Part shown: in pieces, positions 28,618-40,367 of the stretch
How the letters are laid out: each line of letters begins with the position of its first letter
How positions within the stretch are numbered: the stretch's first letter is position 1
Source: Peptoniphilus rachelemmaiella
Lineage (GTDB): Bacteria; Bacillota; Clostridia; Tissierellales; Peptoniphilaceae
Direction of reading: 5' to 3'
Length of the DNA: 64,000 bases
Assembly: GCF_943169845.1 (NCBI RefSeq)
Contig: NZ_CALPBW010000002.1
Location: 62,001-126,000 of the forward strand
Notes under the pieces: generated by a model
Told to the model about the DNA's origin: nothing
What the model saw: the letters and a program-made list of their open reading frames with translations, nothing else
Database searches by the model: none
Translations under genes and position numbers: made by a program

Positions 28618-29574
28618 TTATTTATCATTTTTCGATTGGCCGAAGCATTTTCTGTAGGCCGACGGAGACAAGCCCGTAAACTGCTTAAAGGCCCGGGAGA
28701 AATTCGACGGGTTGTCGTAGCCCACGGACTCGGCGATGTAGGTCATGGAAGCATTGGTGTCGATTAATTGCCGCTCCGCTTCCATCATGCGCAAATTGGC
28801 CAAGTATTTCATGGGGGTGTATTGGCAGGTGTGGATGAATTTATTAATGATCGTGGATTTGGAGCAACCGAAGGTTTCTTCCATCTGTTCTAAAGTTATG
28901 GGCTCCTTTAAATTTTCCCGTAAATACTGCTCCATTTCCGCCACGAATTCATCTTCCGTCTCTTGGAAATAGCGCTTGCGATTGGCGCTCACCTGCTCCT
29001 TGGAAATGGTGGCGAGCAGCCTGAAGGCCATCAGGCCGATGCCTGCGCGATCGGCTTTTGCCAAGGCTTCGATTAAGCCGCGGGCTTCGTCCAGGGCATC
29101 TTTTCGCTTCACCGTAAAGCCTATGTCTTTGATCTCTTTTACCGCATCGACAAACTCTCGGGACAGATCCGCCAAAAACGTGCGTCCCTCGATTTCATCG
29201 GGAGCCACCATCATGTTAAAGGCGACGATGCCCTCTTGGGTTCCGTAGGAGGCCTTCGATTCGGGGATGGCTTTGCCGACAAAAACTTCGCTCGATGTGA
29301 TTAAGACCTTGCTGTCGTTAATGTGGGTGTAGTAATTGCCGTTGAGGCAATAGGCTATGCGATAGCCCCGCCTGCCGCTGTGGACGGCATTTTCCGAGTG
29401 GTAGCAGCTTTTTATATTGATGTAGGCGACGAAGACGCCCGGCGCGATGCGATAGGTGACCATGGTGTCCTCGTCCCTTTCAATGCCTTCAAAATACATG
29501 GTGTCCTCGTCGTAATCGACGACGCGAAAGCCCCAAGACTCAACGCCGTCAACCCAATCTTCTAAATTTGTCAT
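28618..29574 (-). CDS. AraC-family transcriptional regulator
   Basis: 318 residues. The C-terminal ~100 residues hold two helix-turn-helix units of the AraC class (ITLEQMEETFGCSKSTIINKF and IAESVGYDNPSNFSRAFKQFTGLSPSAYRK). The N-terminal domain is a likely ligand-sensing region without a known signature. It lies 9 bases after the ABC pair, a pairing seen with siderophore-type exporters and importers (YbtA with YbtPQ). It probably controls its own operon in response to the transported compound; inferred from context. Confidence 0.9.
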   Translation of the reverse strand: MTNLEDWVDGVESWGFRVVDYDEDTMYFEGIERDEDTMVTYRIAPGVFVAYINIKSCYHSENAVHSGRRGYRIAYCLNGNYYTHINDSKVLITSSEVFVGKAIPESKASYGTQEGIVAFNMMVAPDEIEGRTFLADLSREFVDAVKEIKDIGFTVKRKDALDEARGLIEALAKADRAGIGLMAFRLLATISKEQVSANRKRYFQETEDEFVAEMEQYLRENLKEPITLEQMEETFGCSKSTIINKFIHTCQYTPMKYLANLRMMEAERQLIDTNASMTYIAESVGYDNPSNFSRAFKQFTGLSPSAYRKCFGQSKNDK

Positions 29575-29583
29575 GGCTTTCTC

Positions 29584-31305
29584 CTAATAGACATAGGCAT
29601 CGGAGCGCTCGAAGCTTTCGATCATGGTGCGGTAGGTGGGGCTTTCTTTCAAAAGGGCCTCGTGGCCTCCGCAGGCTTCGATTTTTCCCTCTTTCATCAC
29701 GATGATCTGATCAACCCCTTCGATGGATTTCATGCGGTGGGAAATAATCATCACCGTTTTGTTTTTTATCAGCCGATTCAAAGATTCCTGAATGTACTTT
29801 TCGTTTTCCACATCCAAGGACGCGGCGATTTCATCTAAAAGAATGATCTGTGCATCTTTCAAAAAGGCGCGGGCGATGGAAATCCGCTGCCGCTGGCCGC
29901 CGGAAAGGCGGGAGCCGTTTTCGCCGATGATTGTGTCGTAACCTTGGGGCAATTGCTTCACGAAATCGTCGCAGCCCGCCTGCTTCGCCGCTTCGTAGAC
30001 CTCTTCTTCCGTGGCGTCGTATTTTCCGATGCGAATGTTATCGAAGACGGAGCCGTTAAAGAGGAGTACGTCTTGAAAAACCATGGACACGTGCTTAAAC
30101 AGATCCTCCGTTTCAATGGATGAAAGCTCTTTACCGTCCACGGTCATATGACCGGCGTCGTAATCGTAGAGGCGGCTCACCAGGCGAAGCAAGGTGGATT
30201 TGCCGCAGCCCGAAGGGCCCACCAATGCCGTTACCGTGTTTTGCTTCGCTTCAAAGGAGATGGCGTCGATGACTTTCTTTTTCTTGTCGTAGGAGAAGTC
30301 CACATGATCTCCGGCGATGTCGAAATGCTCAAGGGCCGTCGGGCTTCCGGTTTGCTTCGGTGCGTCCACCAAGCTTTTGATTTTATCGACGCTGCTCGAA
30401 ATGTAGGCGATTTCTGCGTGGGCCATCGTGAAGGCGGTGGTGGCGTCAATGAGGCGGGCCGCCGCAAAGACATAGCCGGCAAAGTAGAGCACGTTGATGG
30501 TGCCGCTTTGCAGCAGGCGGGTGCCCACCACCATGGCAAAGCCCAGAGACAAGAAGCTGACTGCGCCGGAAAAGGTGACGGGCAGGGCCTGGCCCAGTTC
30601 CGTTCGAATATGCACGGCTTCGTTTCGCCGCGCCAGTCGCTTCGCCTCGCTTTTTTTCGTCTCGCTTAAATGGTAGGACTGAATTTCCTCGTGCATATCG
30701 ATGAGCTCTTGAAAGGCTTTCGCCATTTTCCGCTGCCTGAGAAAATACTTCTTCGAGACCTTTGCCTGCATTTGCTGGGACAAATGGGCGAGAAAAATGC
30801 TGAGCACAATGGGCACCAAAACGGCGAGCCCCAGAAGGGGTTGGCCGATAAGAAGCATGATGCCGATGACGATCACCGTGGCGAGAAAGGCGTAGTAGGT
30901 GGGCACGGAGTGGGACAGGGCGTGCTCGATGGTCTCCACGTCTTTCATCATGGTTTGGGACACATCCGTTAAGTCCTTTTTGTTAAAGGACGACAGGGGC
31001 AATTGCCGGATTCCCTCGACGATCTCCATGCGCAGATTCGCCGATTCCTTGTAGGTTTCGTTAAAAGTGGTGTGGTACTCCTTGTTTATGACCAAAAACA
31101 TGACCACGCCGATAAGCGCAAAGCCGAGGGCGCCGTAAGCCATGTTGAAGCTTCCGAAGCCCAAGAGGCCGTTGGTGGCATACATTAAGAGAAACATGGG
31201 GAGCATGTAGGTGATGTTTTTTAAAAAGCCGTAAACCGTCGCTCGCCACAGGCCGTCGGCTCCCCGTTCCGTGAGGGCGTAGGTTTTTCGTAAATACTCT
31301 TTCAT
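29584..31305 (-). CDS. ABC half-transporter (fused membrane and ATPase domains), second of pair
   Basis: 573 residues from the ATG that overlaps the stop of the preceding gene (ATGA) and has GGAGG eight bases upstream. Type IV exporter fold: six helices (about 15-310), then an ATPase with GPSGCGKST, LSGGQRQRISIARA, IILLDEIAASLD and ISHRM. In the Walker B/D-loop area Ile replaces the usual Pro or Ala after the catalytic Glu. Forms a heterodimer with the 31302-33050 product. IrtAB/YbtPQ-like systems of this shape import metal-loaded siderophores. Confidence 0.88.
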   Translation of the reverse strand: MKEYLRKTYALTERGADGLWRATVYGFLKNITYMLPMFLLMYATNGLLGFGSFNMAYGALGFALIGVVMFLVINKEYHTTFNETYKESANLRMEIVEGIRQLPLSSFNKKDLTDVSQTMMKDVETIEHALSHSVPTYYAFLATVIVIGIMLLIGQPLLGLAVLVPIVLSIFLAHLSQQMQAKVSKKYFLRQRKMAKAFQELIDMHEEIQSYHLSETKKSEAKRLARRNEAVHIRTELGQALPVTFSGAVSFLSLGFAMVVGTRLLQSGTINVLYFAGYVFAAARLIDATTAFTMAHAEIAYISSSVDKIKSLVDAPKQTGSPTALEHFDIAGDHVDFSYDKKKKVIDAISFEAKQNTVTALVGPSGCGKSTLLRLVSRLYDYDAGHMTVDGKELSSIETEDLFKHVSMVFQDVLLFNGSVFDNIRIGKYDATEEEVYEAAKQAGCDDFVKQLPQGYDTIIGENGSRLSGGQRQRISIARAFLKDAQIILLDEIAASLDVENEKYIQESLNRLIKNKTVMIISHRMKSIEGVDQIIVMKEGKIEACGGHEALLKESPTYRTMIESFERSDAYVY

Positions 31306-33050
31306 CCGTCGATCCTCCATTCATTGGCCTCGTGATACAAGCTGACGAAGCGGGCGTAGCGTCCGTCCTCTTTCATGAGGGCGTCGTGATTGCCTCGTTC
31401 GATGATCTTTCCTCCTTCGATAAAGAGAATCTCGTCCACGCCGCGAATGCTGCTCATGCGATGGGCGATCATGATGGTGGTGCGGCCCTTCATTAGGTTC
31501 GAAAAGGCCTTTTGAATCTCGTATTCGTTTTCAGGATCCGCCGCCGCAGAGGCTTCATCCAAAATGAGGATTTTCGGATCTTTTAAAAACAATCGGGCGA
31601 TGGCGACCCGTTGGCACTCGCCGCCTGAAAGCTTCACGCCCTCGGCGCCGATTACGGTGTCGTAGCCTGCGGGAAATTTCTCCTTAAACTCTTCGCAGCG
31701 AGCCAGAGCCAGTGCGCGATGCACTTCCTCTTGGTTTGCCTCGGAATCCGCCAGCTGGACATTGTCGTAAATAGTGAGGCCCTCAAAAAGTTTCGCCTGT
31801 TGAAACACCATGCCCACCGTTTCCATGATCCCATCTTTGTCGTAGGCGGGCATGGGCTTCTCGCCGATCATCACGTCGCCTTTATTTACCGGATAGAGCC
31901 CGGAGACGAGCTTGGCGATGGTGGACTTGCCGCCGCCGGATGGGCCGACGAAGGCGTAGATTTTTCCCGCATCCAAGTGGAGGGAAAAGTCGGAGAGAAT
32001 TTTTTCGTCCTCGTCGTAAGAAAAGTCCACATGGCTGAAGGTAATGGAGCTATCGCCGAAGTCCTTTTCCTTTCCGAAGACCATTTTCTTTTCGTCCATC
32101 TCTTTAAACAGGGCTTCCACAGTATCCACGGCGCGATTGGCCTGCACGTGATACATGGACACGTACATAATTTTCATAATGTTGGCAAAGAACATGCCCA
32201 TAAACAGCGCGAAGAACAAGGTCTTTGCCGCCCACAGGCCGCCGTCGTCTCCTGCGCCTACGCGGTAGACGGCGTAGAAAACGGGTGCGACGATAAATAA
32301 ATTTAACAGCCACTGAAAGGTGACATATGGAATGCGACAGGACATGGAGTAGTTGTAAGCCATGTCGGCGTAATCGTTGATGGTGCTGTATAGGCGCTTA
32401 AAGCTCACAATGGGCGCGGCAAAAAGCTTCACCACCTGCATGCCCCGCACGTATTCCACGGCTTCGGCATTTAACAGATCCAGCTGCTCCATGTAGGCGC
32501 TCATAAATTCTTTTTCCCCCATCATTTTGAAGCAGAGGAAGCCCGACAAGAGGACGATGACGCCGAAAAAGGCCGCTAGCCGCAAATCCACCAGGCCGAT
32601 GACGACAAACATCAGGATCGGCGTTAAAATGGCCACGGTTTGATCGGGAATCAAGTGGGCCACGGCCATGTGGGTCTGCTCCACATTGTCGTCGATGATT
32701 TTGCGCACGCGACCCGATTGGTTTTTGTCGTAAAAAGTATTGGACGCCGTCAAGAGATGATCGATGCCCTTTTCCCTCAGGCGGGTTTCCAAGCGAAAGG
32801 CCGCCAAGTGGCTCATCCATGTGCCGAGGAAATAAAGAATTCCGTAGGCGATAAATGCCGCCACCACGCGGAGGGCATAGTCGCTGCCCGCACCAAAATC
32901 CTGTTCAATAAAAATGGCCTTTAGGGCGAGCCACAAACAATAATAGCCGAACAAATGACAGCAGACGGCGGCTATAGAAAAAAATGCCGACAAAAAGCCG
33001 TTGCTTCGCTTCTCCGGTATGTAAGAAAATAATTTTCGATAGGTGTTCAA
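31302..33050 (-). CDS. ABC half-transporter (fused membrane and ATPase domains), first of pair
   Basis: 582 residues from TTG 33050 with AAAGGAG eight bases before it. Six helices (about 20-310), then ATPase motifs GPSGGGKST, LSGGECQRVAIARL, ILILDEASAAADPEN and IAHRM. Its gene overlaps the next half-transporter by 4 bases, so both are made together. The operon promoter carries a Fur-box-like sequence, which supports iron, haem or siderophore transport over peptide or drug export, but this is inference. Confidence 0.88.
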   Translation of the reverse strand: MNTYRKLFSYIPEKRSNGFLSAFFSIAAVCCHLFGYYCLWLALKAIFIEQDFGAGSDYALRVVAAFIAYGILYFLGTWMSHLAAFRLETRLREKGIDHLLTASNTFYDKNQSGRVRKIIDDNVEQTHMAVAHLIPDQTVAILTPILMFVVIGLVDLRLAAFFGVIVLLSGFLCFKMMGEKEFMSAYMEQLDLLNAEAVEYVRGMQVVKLFAAPIVSFKRLYSTINDYADMAYNYSMSCRIPYVTFQWLLNLFIVAPVFYAVYRVGAGDDGGLWAAKTLFFALFMGMFFANIMKIMYVSMYHVQANRAVDTVEALFKEMDEKKMVFGKEKDFGDSSITFSHVDFSYDEDEKILSDFSLHLDAGKIYAFVGPSGGGKSTIAKLVSGLYPVNKGDVMIGEKPMPAYDKDGIMETVGMVFQQAKLFEGLTIYDNVQLADSEANQEEVHRALALARCEEFKEKFPAGYDTVIGAEGVKLSGGECQRVAIARLFLKDPKILILDEASAAADPENEYEIQKAFSNLMKGRTTIMIAHRMSSIRGVDEILFIEGGKIIERGNHDALMKEDGRYARFVSLYHEANEWRIDG

Positions 33051-33251: not shown

Positions 33252-33312
33252 AATCAATAATAGATGGATTAACGGGATGACGGCACGAACGACCGGTGTG
33301 AAGGAGGTCATT

Positions 33313-34974
33313 ATGTATCGAAAAGAGATTACCACCTACATCTTCTCGATTCTTTTTATTGCCATGGCCGCCGCCATTCAGATCATGGAAGCCCGAGGCA
33401 CCTTGCCTTTTACGGGAAAGACTTTGGTGTTTTTTCTCTACGCCCTGGTCTTTCTTCTCTGGGCGAAAAACATGGAAAACCGCGTGCTCCGCGCCGATGT
33501 AGCCCGGCGATTTAAATTCATCGCCCTTTTGCTTGTCGGCTACTTGGCCACCCGTACGGTAAAATACGAAATCCTCATCGCTTCCGCCACCGCCGTTCGT
33601 TGGATTCGCTACATATATTATTTTTTCATTCTCACCACGGTCCACTTGGTCTTTTTTACGTCCCTCTACGTAGGCAAATCGGAGCGCGAGCCCATCGACA
33701 AGCGTTGGAATCTTTTTTGGATTCCCACCGCCACCTTGATTCTCTTGATTTTAACCAACGACTTCCACGGCCTCGTTTTCGTGCCCTACGCCCACGCCTC
33801 GGGCTTTAAGCAGTACGGCCCCGTCTACCTTATGACCAACGGCTACATCCTTCTTCTCGCCGCCTTGACCCTGATTATTACATCGAAGCGGTCCTTGGCA
33901 CAAAAGCGGCTGAAATCCATCGCCGCCCCGGTAGGGGTTTTGGCCCTGTGCTTTGTCTACACCGTGCTCTACATCGTAGACTGGCCGCCTTTTCACTATG
34001 TAAAAATCGCCTTTCAAAGCGCAGAGTTTAACAGCCTTACGGTCATTCTCTTTATCGAGTCTTTGGTTTTTACGCGGCTCATCGCCTCCAATCGAGGCTA
34101 CGACACTTTTTTAAGCTTGTCTTCCTTGAATATGGGCATGATGGATTTAAAGGGACAAATCGTCGTGAAACCCAACAAGGGGCCGGAGGTCAGCACCGAT
34201 GCAGTAAGAGAAGCGGAAAACCGCGCCATTGCCGTGGACGAAAACACCCTTCTCGAAAGCTCGCCCATTGGCGGCGGCAGCTGTTTTTGGTTCGTGGACC
34301 TTACGGATTTTAATCGCCTGAAAGCGCAACTTCTCTCCGTCAACGAGGAAATGCTCAACGAAAATGAATTGCTTCTGGCCAACAATAAACTGAAGGAAGA
34401 AATGGCCATGGTTAAAGAGCAGCGGGACATTCGCGACGCCATTCAGGAAAAGCTCAAGCCCCAATTCGCTCAGTTGAAAGTCATTATGGCCCATCTGCCC
34501 GAGGCGGAAGATGCTTACGAAGACGACCTCAAGGACGCCTGCCTCTTAAATGTGTACATTAAGCGCTTCTCCAATTTATTTTTGCTTGCCAGAAACAGAG
34601 CGGATCTTTCCCTGGCGGAAATGCGTTTGGCCTTCGACGAATCCTTAGACTACCTGCGATTAAAAGGCGTGGTCACCTCCAATACCTGGGACGTGACCGG
34701 CGCTGTGGATGCCGCAGCGGGCCTGAGCCTTTACGCCGCGTTTCAAATGATCTTAGAGGCTTATCTCCATTGTCTTAAGGCGATTTTCATTCATTTTCAG
34801 GAAAAGGATGAATCGCTTTTGCTCTCGATCTACGTGGAAAGCGAAAAACAAATCTCCCCGGAAAGAAAAATCCGAGCGGTGCTCCCCTCCGAAGGTGTCT
34901 CCTTTGCGGAGGAATTTAAGGAAGGGCTCTCTCTCCTGCGCTTTTCCGTAAAAAAAGGCGGTGACCCACGATGA
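33313..34974 (+). CDS. 7TM sensor with degenerate histidine kinase domain (pseudokinase)
   Basis: 553 residues from the ATG behind AAGGAGG. About seven membrane helices (1-255) resemble the HisKA_7TM sensory module (TNDFHGLVF). Then comes a PAS-like segment (about 265-345), a coiled coil, and a region that lines up with the DHp and ATPase parts of the next gene. Where that kinase has IHDRLGQ, this protein has IRDAIQE, so the phosphoacceptor His is Arg374. The N-box Asn residues and the Gly-rich boxes are also absent from the LYAAFQMILEAYLHCLKAIFIHF stretch. It is probably a signal-sensing, non-catalytic partner. Overlaps the kinase gene by 4 bases. Confidence 0.75.
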   Translation: MYRKEITTYIFSILFIAMAAAIQIMEARGTLPFTGKTLVFFLYALVFLLWAKNMENRVLRADVARRFKFIALLLVGYLATRTVKYEILIASATAVRWIRYIYYFFILTTVHLVFFTSLYVGKSEREPIDKRWNLFWIPTATLILLILTNDFHGLVFVPYAHASGFKQYGPVYLMTNGYILLLAALTLIITSKRSLAQKRLKSIAAPVGVLALCFVYTVLYIVDWPPFHYVKIAFQSAEFNSLTVILFIESLVFTRLIASNRGYDTFLSLSSLNMGMMDLKGQIVVKPNKGPEVSTDAVREAENRAIAVDENTLLESSPIGGGSCFWFVDLTDFNRLKAQLLSVNEEMLNENELLLANNKLKEEMAMVKEQRDIRDAIQEKLKPQFAQLKVIMAHLPEAEDAYEDDLKDACLLNVYIKRFSNLFLLARNRADLSLAEMRLAFDESLDYLRLKGVVTSNTWDVTGAVDAAAGLSLYAAFQMILEAYLHCLKAIFIHFQEKDESLLLSIYVESEKQISPERKIRAVLPSEGVSFAEEFKEGLSLLRFSVKKGGDPR

Positions 34975-36233
34975 TGAATCTATCTACAGCGGCGCTCGCT
35001 ATTTTATTTATTGCAAGCCTCGCCATCCTTATCATGGCACTGGATCTATCCGTGGATGCGGCCCTTGCCTTGCGACTATCGCCTCTCTTTTTCACAAGCG
35101 CCCTCTTGGTCTTGGCGGCACTTCTTCCCGCCCAAGTGGTGGCGGAGCTAGGCACCGGGCATTACCACTTAGCCGATTATTTTTTACACACGCCCCTTCT
35201 CGCCTTCATCGCCTATCTCCTGGTTTTGCTCTTCTTAGAAGGCGTCCTGGCCCGCAAGCTTTCCAAACTGAAAAAGGAACAGCTGGGAGAAAACTCCGTG
35301 AAAGAAAGCGTGGACAATCTCCCCGACGGCATTTGTTTTTCAAAGCTCGACGGCACGCCCCTTTTAGTGAATCGCCAAATGCAGGAAATCAGCTACCAAG
35401 TCTTCGGCAAAAAGCTCGTCAACGACTTGCTCTGCGCGCGGGACATCGAAGCCAATCGCATTCGTCCGCGGACAAAAATTTTGCAGCGGGAGCCTTTAAT
35501 TATCGCAAGCAATTCCAAGGTGTGGCAGATTAAAATCATCCACCACGGCTTGGTGAAGGAAACCCTGGCCTACGACATAACCCTGGAATGGGCGCTCTAT
35601 GAGGAAATCGAGAAAATGACCCGGGCCAATCAGCGGATGAATGCCGAATTAAAGGCGTATCAAGAAAAAATCGGCGAATACACGCGGCAGAAGGAAATTT
35701 TACAGGCCAAGATAAAAATCCACGACCGCTTAGGTCAGGCCCTGGTTTATTTCAGACGCTATTTGGAAAAGTCGGAGAAGACGCCTGAGGATCGCCGCCG
35801 ACTGGAGACCCTGTGGCGGGAATGTTTGATTCTTTTCGACGAAGAAGATGAGGCGCCGAAAGCGGCCTCGGCTTGGGACAAGTTTATTTCGACGGCGAAG
35901 GCCATCGGCGTGGATGTCATGGTCGAAGGCGACGTGCCCGCGTCGGAGGAAGATCAGGCCCTCTTGGTGGACTTGGTCCACGAGGCGTTGAACAACGCCG
36001 TTCGCCACGGCCACGCCAAAAAGATTTGGATCACCTTAAAAGATCGCGGCCCCACATTTTCCTGCACCATTAAAAACGACGGCAACTTGCCCACGGGCCC
36101 GGTGGAGGAAAAAGGCGGATTGAAAAATATGCGCCAACGCTTGGCTTATTACGACGGCACCCTGGCCGTACGCAGAGAGTCGCTCTTTCAATTGGATTTA
36201 TCCTGGAGCAAAGGAGGTTTTCGTGACTTATAA
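34971..36233 (+). CDS. NarL-type sensor histidine kinase
   Basis: 420 residues. Three hydrophobic segments at the N-terminus (about 5-95), a PAS-like domain (about 115-210), coiled coil (about 215-245), DHp motif KIHDRLGQAL with phosphoacceptor His251, and a HATPase_c domain with N-box HEALNNAVRH and G-box KGGLKNMRQRL. This is the compact HPK7/NarX-LytS-like form that pairs with LuxR-type regulators, such as the one encoded next. It has little extracellular sequence of its own, so input may come from the 7TM pseudokinase encoded just before it. Confidence 0.88.
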   Translation: MMNLSTAALAILFIASLAILIMALDLSVDAALALRLSPLFFTSALLVLAALLPAQVVAELGTGHYHLADYFLHTPLLAFIAYLLVLLFLEGVLARKLSKLKKEQLGENSVKESVDNLPDGICFSKLDGTPLLVNRQMQEISYQVFGKKLVNDLLCARDIEANRIRPRTKILQREPLIIASNSKVWQIKIIHHGLVKETLAYDITLEWALYEEIEKMTRANQRMNAELKAYQEKIGEYTRQKEILQAKIKIHDRLGQALVYFRRYLEKSEKTPEDRRRLETLWRECLILFDEEDEAPKAASAWDKFISTAKAIGVDVMVEGDVPASEEDQALLVDLVHEALNNAVRHGHAKKIWITLKDRGPTFSCTIKNDGNLPTGPVEEKGGLKNMRQRLAYYDGTLAVRRESLFQLDLSWSKGGFRDL

Positions 36234-36855
36234 ATTTATGATCGTCGACGATCAATTTGTCTCCCGTGAACTGTTCCGCCTTATTCTGGACAACCACCCC
36301 GGTTACGAGGTGGTTTATTCCGTAGACACGGCCATGTTTGCCGACACCTATGTCCTGAATCGGAATTTGGATTTGGTGATTATGGACATTCTCATGCAAG
36401 ACGGCTCCAACGGATTGGATGCGGCGGAAAAGATAAAAAGGTTGAGGCCGGACATAAAAATCGTCGCCGTCACCAGTATGCCGGAAGTCTCCTGGATGGA
36501 GCGGGCGAAGGCCATCGGCATCGACAGTTTTTGGTACAAAGAAGCATCGGAGGCAAGTATTCTCGAGGTCATCGACCTCACCTTGGCCGGGGAATCCATT
36601 TATCCCGAAGCCACACCGGTAATTCAGCTGGGCCTCGCCCAATCCACGGAATTTACGCCTCGAGAAATTCAGGTGCTGCGCCTCTTGACCACCGGTGCCG
36701 GCAACGAGGAGATCGCGACGAAATTAGAAATCTCCCTGAACACGGTGAAGACCCACGTTCAACATTTAATGGACAAGACCGGCTTTAACAGCCGCACCCA
36801 GCTGGCCATTCAGGCGAGAATCACAGGTTTTGTCATCGAAGAAAGTGAACAATGA
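36223..36855 (+). CDS. NarL/LuxR-family response regulator
   Basis: 210 residues from GTG 36223, with AAAGGAGG upstream and an 11-base overlap with the kinase gene. Receiver domain (about 1-125) with acidic pocket VDD, phosphoacceptor Asp in LVIMDILMQD, Thr in AVTSM and Lys in FWYKEAS. C-terminal LuxR helix-turn-helix (TPREIQVLRLLTTGAGNEEIATKLEISLNTVKTHV). Targets are not evident. Last gene of the operon, followed by a strong terminator. Confidence 0.93.
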   Translation: MTYKFMIVDDQFVSRELFRLILDNHPGYEVVYSVDTAMFADTYVLNRNLDLVIMDILMQDGSNGLDAAEKIKRLRPDIKIVAVTSMPEVSWMERAKAIGIDSFWYKEASEASILEVIDLTLAGESIYPEATPVIQLGLAQSTEFTPREIQVLRLLTTGAGNEEIATKLEISLNTVKTHVQHLMDKTGFNSRTQLAIQARITGFVIEESEQ

Positions 36856-37721: not shown

Positions 37722-39176
37722 TTACTTCTTTTTCTTCTCCCCTTTCATGATCTTCTTCACGTTGTCGCCTTTTAAGTCCATGTAGTTTTCCTTCGAAATG
37801 CGGCTCGTGGTCACGCCGTGTTCCGAGTGCAGGTACTCATCCACACAGTCCAAATTGGAGACTTCGCTCCTCGTCTCGAATTCGTAGGTATGGCGGGCAT
37901 CTTGATTTCTGTATTTTTTTACCATGCTGAAGAAGTAGATAAAACCGCCCACAAGCAGGAGCCAGAAAATATCTCGGCCCTCTTGAATCTTCGTGCCGTC
38001 GAATAAATCCAGTGCCAAAATAATTCGCAGGACGACGGCGGCGAAGAAGCTCGCGATCTCCACGAGAAGAGATACGAGGAAAAGCTTGTTGTAGTTAATG
38101 GGGACGCTCCCCATGGTCTCTTTGGTTCTGGCATTCACCGCCACGTAGTGGAGCAGCTGCTTCTTGCCCTTTACCTGCATGTAGCTGTAAAGCCACACGG
38201 GCAAGTAGGCCGCTTTCCACGCGTCGCCTACGACGGTAAAGTCTTCCTGCTTCCAGCACACGCCGCGATCGTAATCCTTGAGCGTGTCTAAAATCGCCAG
38301 CCGCGCCACATCGGCACTTTGCACGTCGGTGACCTCTTTCAGCCCGCCCCTATTGGTGTCCCGTTTTTCCGAGGTATAGCCTTTCAGGTAATTGGCATTG
38401 TAGGCCACGCAATTTTCCGTGTCGAAGGGCAAAATGGAATTAATAATATTGGTGGTCTTGGTCTTGGATTGGTAATCCAACTTGTCGCTGCTGGATTCGA
38501 TGACCAAGTCGTCGATGGCGATGTCGAAGTCTCGTTCCACATGGTAGGTGTCCACGTCGTATTCCCTGTGCTCCCCGTCGTCGTCTTTTACCATATAGCT
38601 GTTGGTTTCAATTTCCCCTTCCCCAGACAGCTTCATGTGGCCGTTTACATCCACCAGCATATAGGGCAAATAGACGCCGCAAATATTTTCTGTGGTAAAT
38701 TCCCTTGCGAATGTGGGATGGGCGAATTTTCTTCGCTCGCCGACGAAGGTTTCGATTTCTTTTTGGGCCTCTTCTTTGGAAATGCTGAAGGGCAATAGCA
38801 CATCGGGTACGGCGCCGTTTGGAATGACGCTGTTAATGGAAAGGGTGTTGCGGCACCAGTGGCAGCGGGCTTGGGTAGAGGCGGCCGTATCGACGACGAC
38901 CTCCGCACCGCAGCTCTCGCATTTTAAGGTGATGACATCCTCGGCATCGACGTCGATGTCCTCGGCGCCGCTTTGAACGGTGCTTCCCTTTAATGTCTCG
39001 ATGGCCGCATCGTCGGCCGCTCGAATCAGTTCAAATTCGTGGCGACAGAAATTGCAGCGCAGCTTTCCCGTCTTCGTGTTGGTCTGAATGTCTGTGGCGC
39101 CGCACTTGGGGCATTTGATTTGGCCGTTGGCTTTGTCTTGTTCTGTGACGGCGGTATTCATCTTTTCATCAGCCAT
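37722..39176 (-). CDS. YdjG-like protein with two N-terminal zinc ribbons
   Basis: 484 residues. Two zinc ribbons at the N-terminus (CPKCG..CNFC at about 22-44 and CESCG..CHWC at about 86-107), a long soluble middle, and two membrane helices at about 360-385 and 400-420, then a cytoplasmic tail. B. subtilis YdjG has the same plan and sits with YdjI, PspA and YdjH in an envelope-stress operon; here the YdjI-like gene is 9 bases upstream. No PspA or YdjH gene is present beside it. Confidence 0.78.
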   Translation of the reverse strand: MADEKMNTAVTEQDKANGQIKCPKCGATDIQTNTKTGKLRCNFCRHEFELIRAADDAAIETLKGSTVQSGAEDIDVDAEDVITLKCESCGAEVVVDTAASTQARCHWCRNTLSINSVIPNGAVPDVLLPFSISKEEAQKEIETFVGERRKFAHPTFAREFTTENICGVYLPYMLVDVNGHMKLSGEGEIETNSYMVKDDDGEHREYDVDTYHVERDFDIAIDDLVIESSSDKLDYQSKTKTTNIINSILPFDTENCVAYNANYLKGYTSEKRDTNRGGLKEVTDVQSADVARLAILDTLKDYDRGVCWKQEDFTVVGDAWKAAYLPVWLYSYMQVKGKKQLLHYVAVNARTKETMGSVPINYNKLFLVSLLVEIASFFAAVVLRIILALDLFDGTKIQEGRDIFWLLLVGGFIYFFSMVKKYRNQDARHTYEFETRSEVSNLDCVDEYLHSEHGVTTSRISKENYMDLKGDNVKKIMKGEKKKK

Positions 39177-39185
39177 AATCCACCT

Positions 39186-40367
39186 CTAAAGTCCCAAAAG
39201 CTCAGATTTTATTTTGTTAAACTCGTCTTCGGTAATAACGCCGGCGTCCAGTAATTTTTTCATTTGAATGAGTTTTTCCGTCGGGTCCGCTTCCTGTGAT
39301 GCAGGCGCCTGTTGTTGATTGTTCATCCCTTGATTCACCGGCTGCTGTGTCGCGCCCATGACATTCCCTGCCGCGCCCATGCCCATGCCCATAAAGGCCA
39401 TGTTGGCGCCGCCGCCGTTTTCTCCCGCCGCCTGCATGCCGCGGGCCACAGATTGTTGCATAAAGGAATTGCCTCGGGCGCCGGAAAGGGCATCGGCACG
39501 CTTTACATCTTTCATCATTTCCTTCGTATCCTCGTCGTATTCCATGGCGAGAATGGCGGTCTTCACGATGGTAAGCCCGCGCTCCGTCTTCCACTGATAG
39601 CCTTCCTCCACGGCCTCGGTGAGGCTCTTGGCAAAGCCCAGTTGATCCCCTTGAATGCGGCTCATGCGATTGCCTTTGGAGGGATCGTTGGTGTAGTTGG
39701 AGAAGGCGGCAGAAAGGGAACCGACCACTTCGTTGAAAAGCTGTTCCGCCGCGTCGTTATCCAAATCGCCGAAGTCGAAAACCGGCGCGTTTTGGGTCAG
39801 GAATTTTTGCGGCACGAAGTTTTTCACGAAGAGCAAGGGATCCACAATCTTCAAGGTATAAGTACCTCGGGTCACGGCGCCGACTTGGGTGCCGAAAAAG
39901 GCATCGTCCCAGTAGATTTCGCTTTGGGTGCCGAAGCGATTGTTGGGGATTTCCTTTAGATTGACGTAAAAGGCCAATTGTTGGGCGCCGGCTTGTCCGC
40001 CGAATTGAATCTTCTCCCAAGTCGACTGAATCAAGCTGCCCACGGGATCTTCTGTGGTGAAGATGCTTTGGGCGTTGGCCTCGTCGCTTTGATAGATGAA
40101 TCCGCCGGGCTCTGCCACAATGCCGGTGATGGCGCCGTCTTCCATGGTAATGAGGGCCGTCCCTTCAGGTACGATGATCTTGCTGCCCGAAGTAATAATA
40201 TTGTCGTTGCCCTTGGTGTTTTCACCGCGACCGTTGTTGCTGCCCTTGGGCTTGGCTGCAAAAATAGCTGCCGTGGCGGGAATGCCTTCCGGCACCATGT
40301 AAAAATCCTTCCACTGATCAGCCAGGCTTCCGCCTAAAGCGCCGGTAAATGCTTTAACAAATCCCAT
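39186..40367 (-). CDS. YdjI-like SPFH protein with C-terminal SHOCT domain
   Basis: 393 residues. Opens MGFVKAFTGALGGSLADQWKDFY, as in YdjI-type SPFH proteins (sometimes labelled virion core protein). SPFH core at about 20-270, a Gly/Met/Gln-rich linker (about 300-350), and a SHOCT segment at the end (KLIQMKKLLDAGVITEDEFNKIKSELL). YdjI in B. subtilis recruits the envelope-stress protein PspA to the membrane. Co-transcribed with the YdjG-like gene. Confidence 0.8.
   Translation of the reverse strand: MGFVKAFTGALGGSLADQWKDFYMVPEGIPATAAIFAAKPKGSNNGRGENTKGNDNIITSGSKIIVPEGTALITMEDGAITGIVAEPGGFIYQSDEANAQSIFTTEDPVGSLIQSTWEKIQFGGQAGAQQLAFYVNLKEIPNNRFGTQSEIYWDDAFFGTQVGAVTRGTYTLKIVDPLLFVKNFVPQKFLTQNAPVFDFGDLDNDAAEQLFNEVVGSLSAAFSNYTNDPSKGNRMSRIQGDQLGFAKSLTEAVEEGYQWKTERGLTIVKTAILAMEYDEDTKEMMKDVKRADALSGARGNSFMQQSVARGMQAAGENGGGANMAFMGMGMGAAGNVMGATQQPVNQGMNNQQQAPASQEADPTEKLIQMKKLLDAGVITEDEFNKIKSELLGL

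Follow-up and report, generated by a model that had tools for sequence, protein, structure and literature searches.

How does a two-component system work when its locus encodes two membrane proteins built like sensor kinases, only one of which carries the residues of an active kinase? The question is raised by three genes, here called P1, P2 and P3, which lie on the plus strand, each overlapping the next, in a 64,000-nucleotide window of Peptoniphilus rachelemmaiella (assembly GCF_943169845.1, contig NZ_CALPBW010000002.1, positions 62,001 to 126,000; all coordinates are those of the window, the whole stretch of DNA analysed). P1 is a predicted seven-transmembrane (7TM) pseudokinase, P2 a predicted histidine kinase and P3 a response regulator. 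We think, with a probability of about two in three, that P1 and P2 are two subunits of one heteromeric sensor kinase, a reading that draws on sequence comparison and predicted structures.

The start of P1 was placed at the ATG at 33313, which stands behind AAGGAGG, in preference to an in-frame ATG at 33277; P1 residues are numbered from 33313, and the Pfam scan of P1 started at 33277. P1 and P2 share 4 bases, as the first-pass annotation of this DNA had it, and P2 and P3 share 11. The genome contains one match to P1 and one to P2. The features of the three genes are listed below, with the dimerization and histidine phosphotransfer part abbreviated as DHp and the catalytic and ATP-binding domain as CA.

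33313–34974, plus strand: P1, putative 7TM pseudokinase, 553 amino acids (Pfam HisKA_7TM, AlphaFold2 model, CA fold)
33316–34071, plus strand: P1 transmembrane bundle (AlphaFold2 model)
about 34099–34305, plus strand: P1 PAS-like domain (AlphaFold2 model)
34303–34491, plus strand: P1 signalling helix and DHp alpha1 (AlphaFold2 model)
34432–34434, plus strand: P1 R374 codon, deep-profile partner of P2 H251
34507–34593, plus strand: P1 alpha2 (AlphaFold2 model)
34561–34566, plus strand: P1 K417-R418 within the alpha2 motif YIKRxSNL, near-invariant (157-pair alignment)
about 34600–34962, plus strand: P1 degenerate CA domain (AlphaFold2 model, fold comparison)
34971–34974, plus strand: ATGA stop-start overlap of P1 and P2 (sequence)
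34971–36233, plus strand: P2, putative histidine kinase, 420 amino acids (HATPase_c just below threshold, phmmer match to DesK in the PDB, fold)
34986–35279, plus strand: three P2 transmembrane helices (model, hydropathy)
about 35289–35576, plus strand: P2 PAS-like domain (model)
35580–35768, plus strand: P2 signalling helix and DHp alpha1 (model)
35721–35723, plus strand: P2 H251, presumed phosphoacceptor, within HDRLGQ (His in 157 of 157 pairs)
35784–35840, plus strand: P2 alpha2 (model)
about 35868–36218, plus strand: P2 CA domain (model)
36223–36855, plus strand: P3, NarL/FixJ-type response regulator, 210 amino acids, GTG start (receiver and GerE helix-turn-helix)

P1 and P2 form a conserved unit. 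Our collection was built on P1, the window and locus L043 (found through a P2 search) excepted: 80 loci, the best of 334 confirmed stretches, were joined by loci from further genomes, in overlapping samples of relatives (14 of 61 genomes with loci), the class (27 of 391), the phylum (14 of 398) and two families (31 of 115 and 33 of 197). Some of the 201 loci examined are duplicated between collections, and 200 have P1. When any match above 40 bits that lies no more than 600 bases from P1 is taken as P2, broken copies included, P2 follows P1 in 193 of the 194 loci with room downstream. L125, with 1680 bases, is the sole locus that has room and no P2, and the contigs of the six others without a visible P2 stop no more than 176 bases from it. 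The P2 of L208 is close to the calling limit, and L277, where the P2 start was overcalled, was counted as paired. From the P2 side, 24 of the 25 matches in the class at E values of 2e-45 or below adjoin P1, and the remaining one begins with the first base of its contig; matches after these drop to 1.4e-31 and are partial. Frequent separation of the two genes would have spoken against a heteromeric kinase, and the survey found them together from both sides. P3 is tied to the pair less tightly than P2 to P1: in a subset of 114 loci that offer 2200 bases of room or more, it lies downstream on the same strand in 103, lies elsewhere in the locus in nine and was not found in two.

For alignment, 174 of the 201 loci had a P1 of at least 400 amino acids in one frame and a P2 of at least 300, and clustering at 95% identity left 157 non-redundant pairs, on which the counts below are based. 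L277 was dropped; the length rule admits a few P2 fragments, such as that of L016, whose frame breaks after about residue 309; and one analysis of the set of 80 omitted three loci in which P1 is broken. P1 ends in an NTGA stop-start junction (ATGA, GTGA or TTGA) in 127 of the 157 pairs. The hosts are spread over Bacillota, with gut bacteria represented, and include Ruminococcus, Blautia, Allobaculum and Peptoniphilaceae. Of eight genomes from the genus of the window itself, four (G001, G003, G004 and G007) gave no P1 match, and the system is therefore accessory.

Some loci hold damaged copies, through sequencing error or decay. P2 is broken beside an intact P1 in L016/L060, L064, L023/L074 and L083, and P1 is broken in L071, L073/L188, L116, L173, L239, L243 and L259. 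In Murdochiella massiliensis (L063:7281-9555), P2 is cut after about 246 amino acids, in a frame that includes upstream residues; open reading frames that read like mobile-element genes follow it, and P3 was not found in that locus. In L137, on a contig labelled Candidatus Micrarchaeota archaeon, the triad genes have the lengths of those in the Clostridiales locus L132 and score nearly equally; the contig is probably misbinned.

The sensor half of P1 is readily recognized. It matches Pfam HisKA_7TM (PF16927) at E=1.1e-8 and 35.6 bits, above the cut-off of 28.6, and its AlphaFold2 model (mean predicted confidence, pLDDT, of 83) places a bundle of long helices at residues 2-253; next come a PAS-like sheet, a helix of 63 residues, a further helix and lastly an alpha/beta domain like CA. 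The likeness of the 7TM part to G-protein-coupled receptors (Z near 13) was tied with the rest of the matches, and we take it for a common helical arrangement.

The kinase ancestry of the other half had to be looked for with more sensitive methods. HMMER found no kinase domain when 27 P1 C-terminal sequences were compared with Pfam (among the 25 of 48 families listed); a profile of the same 27 found no kinase match in the PDB, nor did sequence searches of Pfam, NCBIfam and the PDB with P1. Profile-profile alignment with hhalign, using up to 157 sequences per side, did detect it. The CA domain of P1 aligned with that of P2 at E=1.4e-7 (94% probability, 103 columns), the DHp-CA stretch at 3.1e-7 and the whole from PAS to CA at 1.2e-10, whereas controls reached 0.065 at best for 30 column shuffles each, 0.017 or worse for reversed profiles and 0.0021 or worse for mismatched segments. 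Structure agrees: Foldseek listed histidine kinase cores, ChpT, DivL and RetS among its matches to the P1 model, and VIA-align superposed P1 residues 433-548 on DesK (Z 13.2, 115 residues at a root-mean-square deviation of 2.3) and residues 415-550 on VraS (Z 13.3, 121 residues at 2.5), scores tied with those of several other CA domains. P1 thus has the DHp helices and Bergerat-type CA domain of a histidine kinase in its predicted fold, and these alignments show that the CA domains of P1 and P2 are homologous. The HMM comparison that the first-pass annotation had proposed for this region was therefore negative with HMMER, and the kinase-like C-terminus it had proposed emerged from profile-profile alignment and fold.

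P1 nevertheless lacks what an active kinase needs. A483 aligns with N342 of P2 and V508-E509-S510 with N369-D370-G371, no lid aligns, and the P1 positions at these columns vary among the 157 relatives; the N, G1 and G2 boxes are absent, as had been predicted from the single sequence. By contrast, K417 is kept in 155 and R418 in 151 of the 157 pairs.

The phosphoacceptor column is less simple. The first-pass annotation had placed Arg374 of P1 where P2 has His251. Deep profiles agree, setting I/L-[Y/R]-D of P1 over I-H-D of P2 with compensating 4-residue gaps, but a gapless register of the helices puts Q378 opposite H251; the window's P1 has no His at the site in either alignment. Arg is moreover atypical, as column 374 holds Tyr in 120 pairs, Arg in 14, His in six and other residues in 17. 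The P1 tree was built by a quick method, and 46 of its 154 inner branches are weak; on it, Arg requires two changes, and 13 of the 14 Arg rows, the window among them, form one clade nested among Tyr rows. The window's Arg is therefore a derived state, an exception, as judged from the sequences, in a family in which Tyr is commonest. His needs three changes, likewise among Tyr rows; the H-box position reads His in L170, L171, L174 and L175.

P2 by sequence is an active kinase of the DesK/VraS kind. It carries H251, N342 and the NDG and GG boxes, with H251 in 157 of 157 pairs, N342 in 155 (two gaps), G371 in 150 and G383 in 153. It matches Pfam HATPase_c at E=1.5e-5 and 25.8 bits, below the cut-off of 26.4; neither P2 nor anything else in its own genome matched Pfam HisKA_3; and phmmer against the PDB found DesK at E=3e-4. 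Its fold resembles DesK (Z 15.1) and VraS (14.2), the top 14 listed entries all being one or the other, at Z 13.7-15.1. The DxxxQ pattern, present in P2 as HDRLGQ, is associated with the phosphatase activity of such kinases; of the 157 pairs, 47 have Q at position 256 and 55 have R. The model (pLDDT 84) has three transmembrane helices, also seen by hydropathy, and a PAS-like sheet, with no external domain. The earlier description of P2 as a kinase with intact motifs and almost no external sensor holds. A shared order of PAS, coiled coil and DHp had also been proposed; it appears in both predicted models, but no Pfam PAS family matched P1 or P2, and we read the domain as PAS-like from the models. 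In P3, Pfam finds Response_reg (E=2.9e-16) and GerE (E=1.8e-17), as in NarL/FixJ regulators, and the receiver has D9, D10, D55, T84 and K106, which we take to play their customary functional roles.

If P1 and P2 share a dimer, their signalling helices should carry its trace, since in a parallel coiled coil coupled pairs are expected at one offset c and at c±3 and c±4. We compared the P1 helix (331-393) with that of P2 (204-266) in the 157 non-redundant pairs. The offset of 127, which pairs P1 residue i with P2 residue i-127, scored 4.98 by mutual information and 6.06 by mean-field direct coupling analysis (DCA). In parallel orientation it ranked first among 190 centres, both parallel and antiparallel, by mutual information, mean-field DCA and pseudolikelihood DCA, at the top 40 and the top 80 pairs alike (hypergeometric P from 1.1e-5 to 8.4e-4), and the P1 sub-blocks 331-353 and 345-373 each favour it in all three methods. 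The observed covariation was reached in none of 200 (mutual information) or 120 (mean-field) tree simulations of matched parsimony, even for the maximum over centres, and in none of 500 or 78 random partner shuffles. Ahead of all covariation work, hhalign had given the same register from 16 and 14 sequences, and in it the two predicted helices are equally long and start and stop together, with alpha2 starting at 399 and 272. Residue pairs predicted to couple include P1 351 with P2 227, P1 357 with P2 226 and P1 333 with P2 206. The initial register of R374 over H251 (offset 123) is not the covariation optimum, and 127 was adopted for the physical pairing of the helices; P1 residue 374 would therefore face P2 residue 247, and H251 would face P1 residue 378, despite the alignment of the H-box-like motifs at 374. 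The signalling helices, then, covary as a parallel coiled coil at one register above the tree-simulated null, which lends support to the heteromeric kinase first suggested from the gene order and architecture. We read this as pointing to a heteromeric signalling helix; a mixed P1/P2 DHp bundle is likely, though less well supported.

Which subunit would sense is suggested by distant relatives. An SBP_bac_6 domain precedes the 7TM part of P1 above the cut-off in L027, L028, L029, L202, L208 and L209 and below it in L203, and P1 has a double HisKA_7TM match in L170 and L175, which L171, L172 and L174 resemble by length and match position. Their P2 partners have about 420 to 510 amino acids (a 272-amino-acid frame in L208), against 420 in the window. 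Because the inputs of P1 vary while P2 stays sensor-poor, we take P1 for the supplier of the signal; it is this modularity that favours the role first proposed for the pseudokinase.

A working scheme can be put together from these parts. The signal would enter at the 7TM bundle of P1, or at an extra solute-binding domain, then travel by way of the PAS-like domain and the signalling helix shared with P2 to the DHp bundle, and so switch P2. The P2 CA domain would then phosphorylate H251 of P2 within one chain; if the dimer is 1:1, the reaction would have to be in cis because P1 has neither acceptor nor ATP site. K417-R418 in P1 alpha2 may shape the mixed DHp core. From H251 the phosphate would move to D55 of P3, which would bind DNA through its GerE domain, and the system may thereby govern a membrane or envelope stress programme that includes a nearby SPFH/zinc-ribbon module. 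Which way the signal runs, the cis reaction, the stoichiometry and the genes targeted are all inferred in this scheme.

Two genes of that kind stand downstream of the triad and convergent with it:

37722–39176, minus strand: zinc-ribbon membrane protein, YdjG-like by description only, possible target (domain scan, neighbourhood)
39186–40367, minus strand: SPFH/Band_7 and SHOCT protein, YdjI-like by description only, possible target (Band_7_1 and SHOCT matches)

SPFH relatives lie near the triad, on either side, at 10 of the 19 non-redundant loci of the window's family-and-clade set. Outside that set they do so at 6 of 137 non-redundant loci against about 0.15 expected (Poisson 1.2e-8; the expectation takes 66 matches in 196 genomes and an assumed genome of 2.4 Mb), and zinc-ribbon relatives at 4 of 137. 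In distant lineages SPFH recurs on either side of the triad at L089, L090, L174, L186, L205 and L207; zinc-ribbon relatives stand at L079, L099, L135 and L175. A first clustering of neighbours found no gene common to most loci, the largest cluster covering 15 of 77. In Bacillus subtilis, PspA requires the SPFH protein YdjI to reach the membrane, and YdjG carries a zinc ribbon (PMC8581546, PMC9239133); by description only, the neighbours resemble the zinc-ribbon membrane and SPFH (band 7) proteins of that pspA-ydjGHI module. By this analogy, membrane stress is a reasonable guess. Divergent from the triad, at 28618-33050 on the minus strand, are an MsbA-like ABC exporter pair and an AraC regulator, which keep this position in Aedoeadaptatus coli, A. 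pacaensis and A. urinae; none was seen at the other loci examined, with flanks of a few kb.

Several observations weigh against the reading of P1 and P2 as one heteromeric kinase with this output. The PAS segments alone (E=0.0055) and the DHp segments alone (E=0.018) do not rise above mismatched segments in hhalign, and the coiled coil with DHp is weak at 3.9e-4; because such short segments are weak, we argue the kinase homology of P1 from CA and the longer collinear stretches. The covariation has modest depth (157 pairs, effectively 109-138), and much of its signal is retained when partners are shuffled within clades (0, 10, 49 and 12 of 300, from coarse to fine). By mutual information one antiparallel centre reaches 4.18 against 4.98, two of 386 unrelated segment pairs attain the observed value, and at the top 20 pairs centre 124 is favoured. 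The preference for 127 is weak or lost towards and inside the DHp, and the contact between P1 alpha2 and P2 alpha1 is partly a conservation artefact. As for the output, the SPFH link is one of neighbourhood only, with convergent genes in the window, and no SPFH gene was seen at 131 of the 137 loci that lie outside the family set, many of which have short flanks. That alpha2-alpha1 contact, beside H251, was set aside as a hint, its mean-field DCA score of 4.07 standing over a shuffled mean of already 1.88.

Covariation cannot separate a 1:1 dimer from a 2:2 assembly in which P2 is a homodimeric kinase gated by a homodimeric P1, an accessory sensor with no mixed DHp. Homodimers are the norm for histidine kinases, and coupling that is strong in the coiled coil and weak inside the DHp suits such a complex. 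We still consider it unlikely, though far from negligible: the covariation register is the homologous gapless register, as expected if each helix replaces the other's dimer partner, and P1 has retained a DHp-CA-like fold. It is also conceivable that P1 works as DivL does, its DHp-CA part binding the regulator, free or phosphorylated, and reporting its state to P2, so that information also flows backwards. The conserved Lys-Arg patch of P1, the presence of DivL among the Foldseek matches and the Tyr found instead of His in most family members, a feature of DivL too (PMC4211667), would fit. We judge this distinctly improbable, given that DivL keeps the ATP boxes that P1 has lost and that covariation between the P1 DHp and the receiver does not stand out; with 108 triads only, nothing stood out between either P1 or P2 and P3. 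That P1 is a plain 7TM receptor adjoining a two-component system, with a C-terminus not derived from a kinase and pairing that reflects mere linkage, would explain why HMMER sees no kinase domain in it, but the profile, fold, pairing and covariation evidence already disfavours this and makes it scarcely credible. We thus prefer the heteromeric sensor kinase. Its strongest form we would put forward tentatively, at somewhat less than even odds: an obligate heterodimer whose homodimers are never functional, joining a receptor pseudokinase to the sole catalytic chain, acting in cis, as a general receptor architecture of Firmicutes with interchangeable inputs on dead subunits and the P1 Lys-Arg pair beside the active-site His of P2.

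The pair would merit attention. Pfam and NCBIfam give it no name, illustrating that pseudokinases can escape standard domain annotation, and its division of labour, with sensing on one chain and catalysis on the other, looks complete. Because the one His and the one active CA domain are on the same chain, it would be a natural asymmetric dimer for testing cis autophosphorylation and for studying the way in which a signalling coiled coil acts on a single active half. Among the matches listed from the open-licence PMC literature, no title concerned it. We regard the pair as a widespread variant of pseudokinase and three-component systems, not previously described in the literature found.

Histidine kinases are taught as homodimers, and DesK and VraS, the nearest relatives of P2 by fold, are single-gene homodimeric sensors. 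P2 shares their DHp-CA fold, HDxxxQ motif and NarL-type partner regulator; unlike them, it has a pseudokinase partner and sits below Pfam cut-offs. Few histidine kinase heterodimers are documented, according to PMC9491836. RetS/GacS and ChrS/HrrS act as heterodimers, as we propose for P1 and P2 (PMC12189002, PMC12675982, PMC9491836), but their partners also homodimerize and belong to separate systems, whereas P1 and P2 are a nearly invariant gene pair. In PMC9491836, ChrS turned into a pseudokinase in an evolved strain, and truncated ChrS gave no two-hybrid heterodimer signal. DivL of Caulobacter is, according to PMC4211667, a pseudo-histidine kinase with a DHp-CA fold and Tyr at the His site, like the P1 family; the abstract calls this Tyr unique to DivL. 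DivL, however, is a sensor of DivK~P that controls a hybrid kinase and still has the N, G1, F and G2 boxes, whereas P1 has no ATP motifs and is a 7TM receptor encoded beside a DesK-like kinase; the window's P1, moreover, has Arg at the His site, where 120 of the 157 pairs have Tyr. The system whose organisation comes closest is FasBCA of group A Streptococcus (PMC12675982), which likewise has two sensor-kinase-like proteins and one regulator in a tandem locus. There, two-hybrid results indicate FasB-FasC heterodimers and not homodimers, and FasC is proposed to be the sensing pseudokinase. FasC itself bears the likely phosphoacceptor, H246, and can do without its kinase domain alone, and FasA is ComE-like; in the triad described here P1 has a 7TM input, P3 has a GerE domain, and the phosphoacceptor His and the catalytic apparatus are both on P2.

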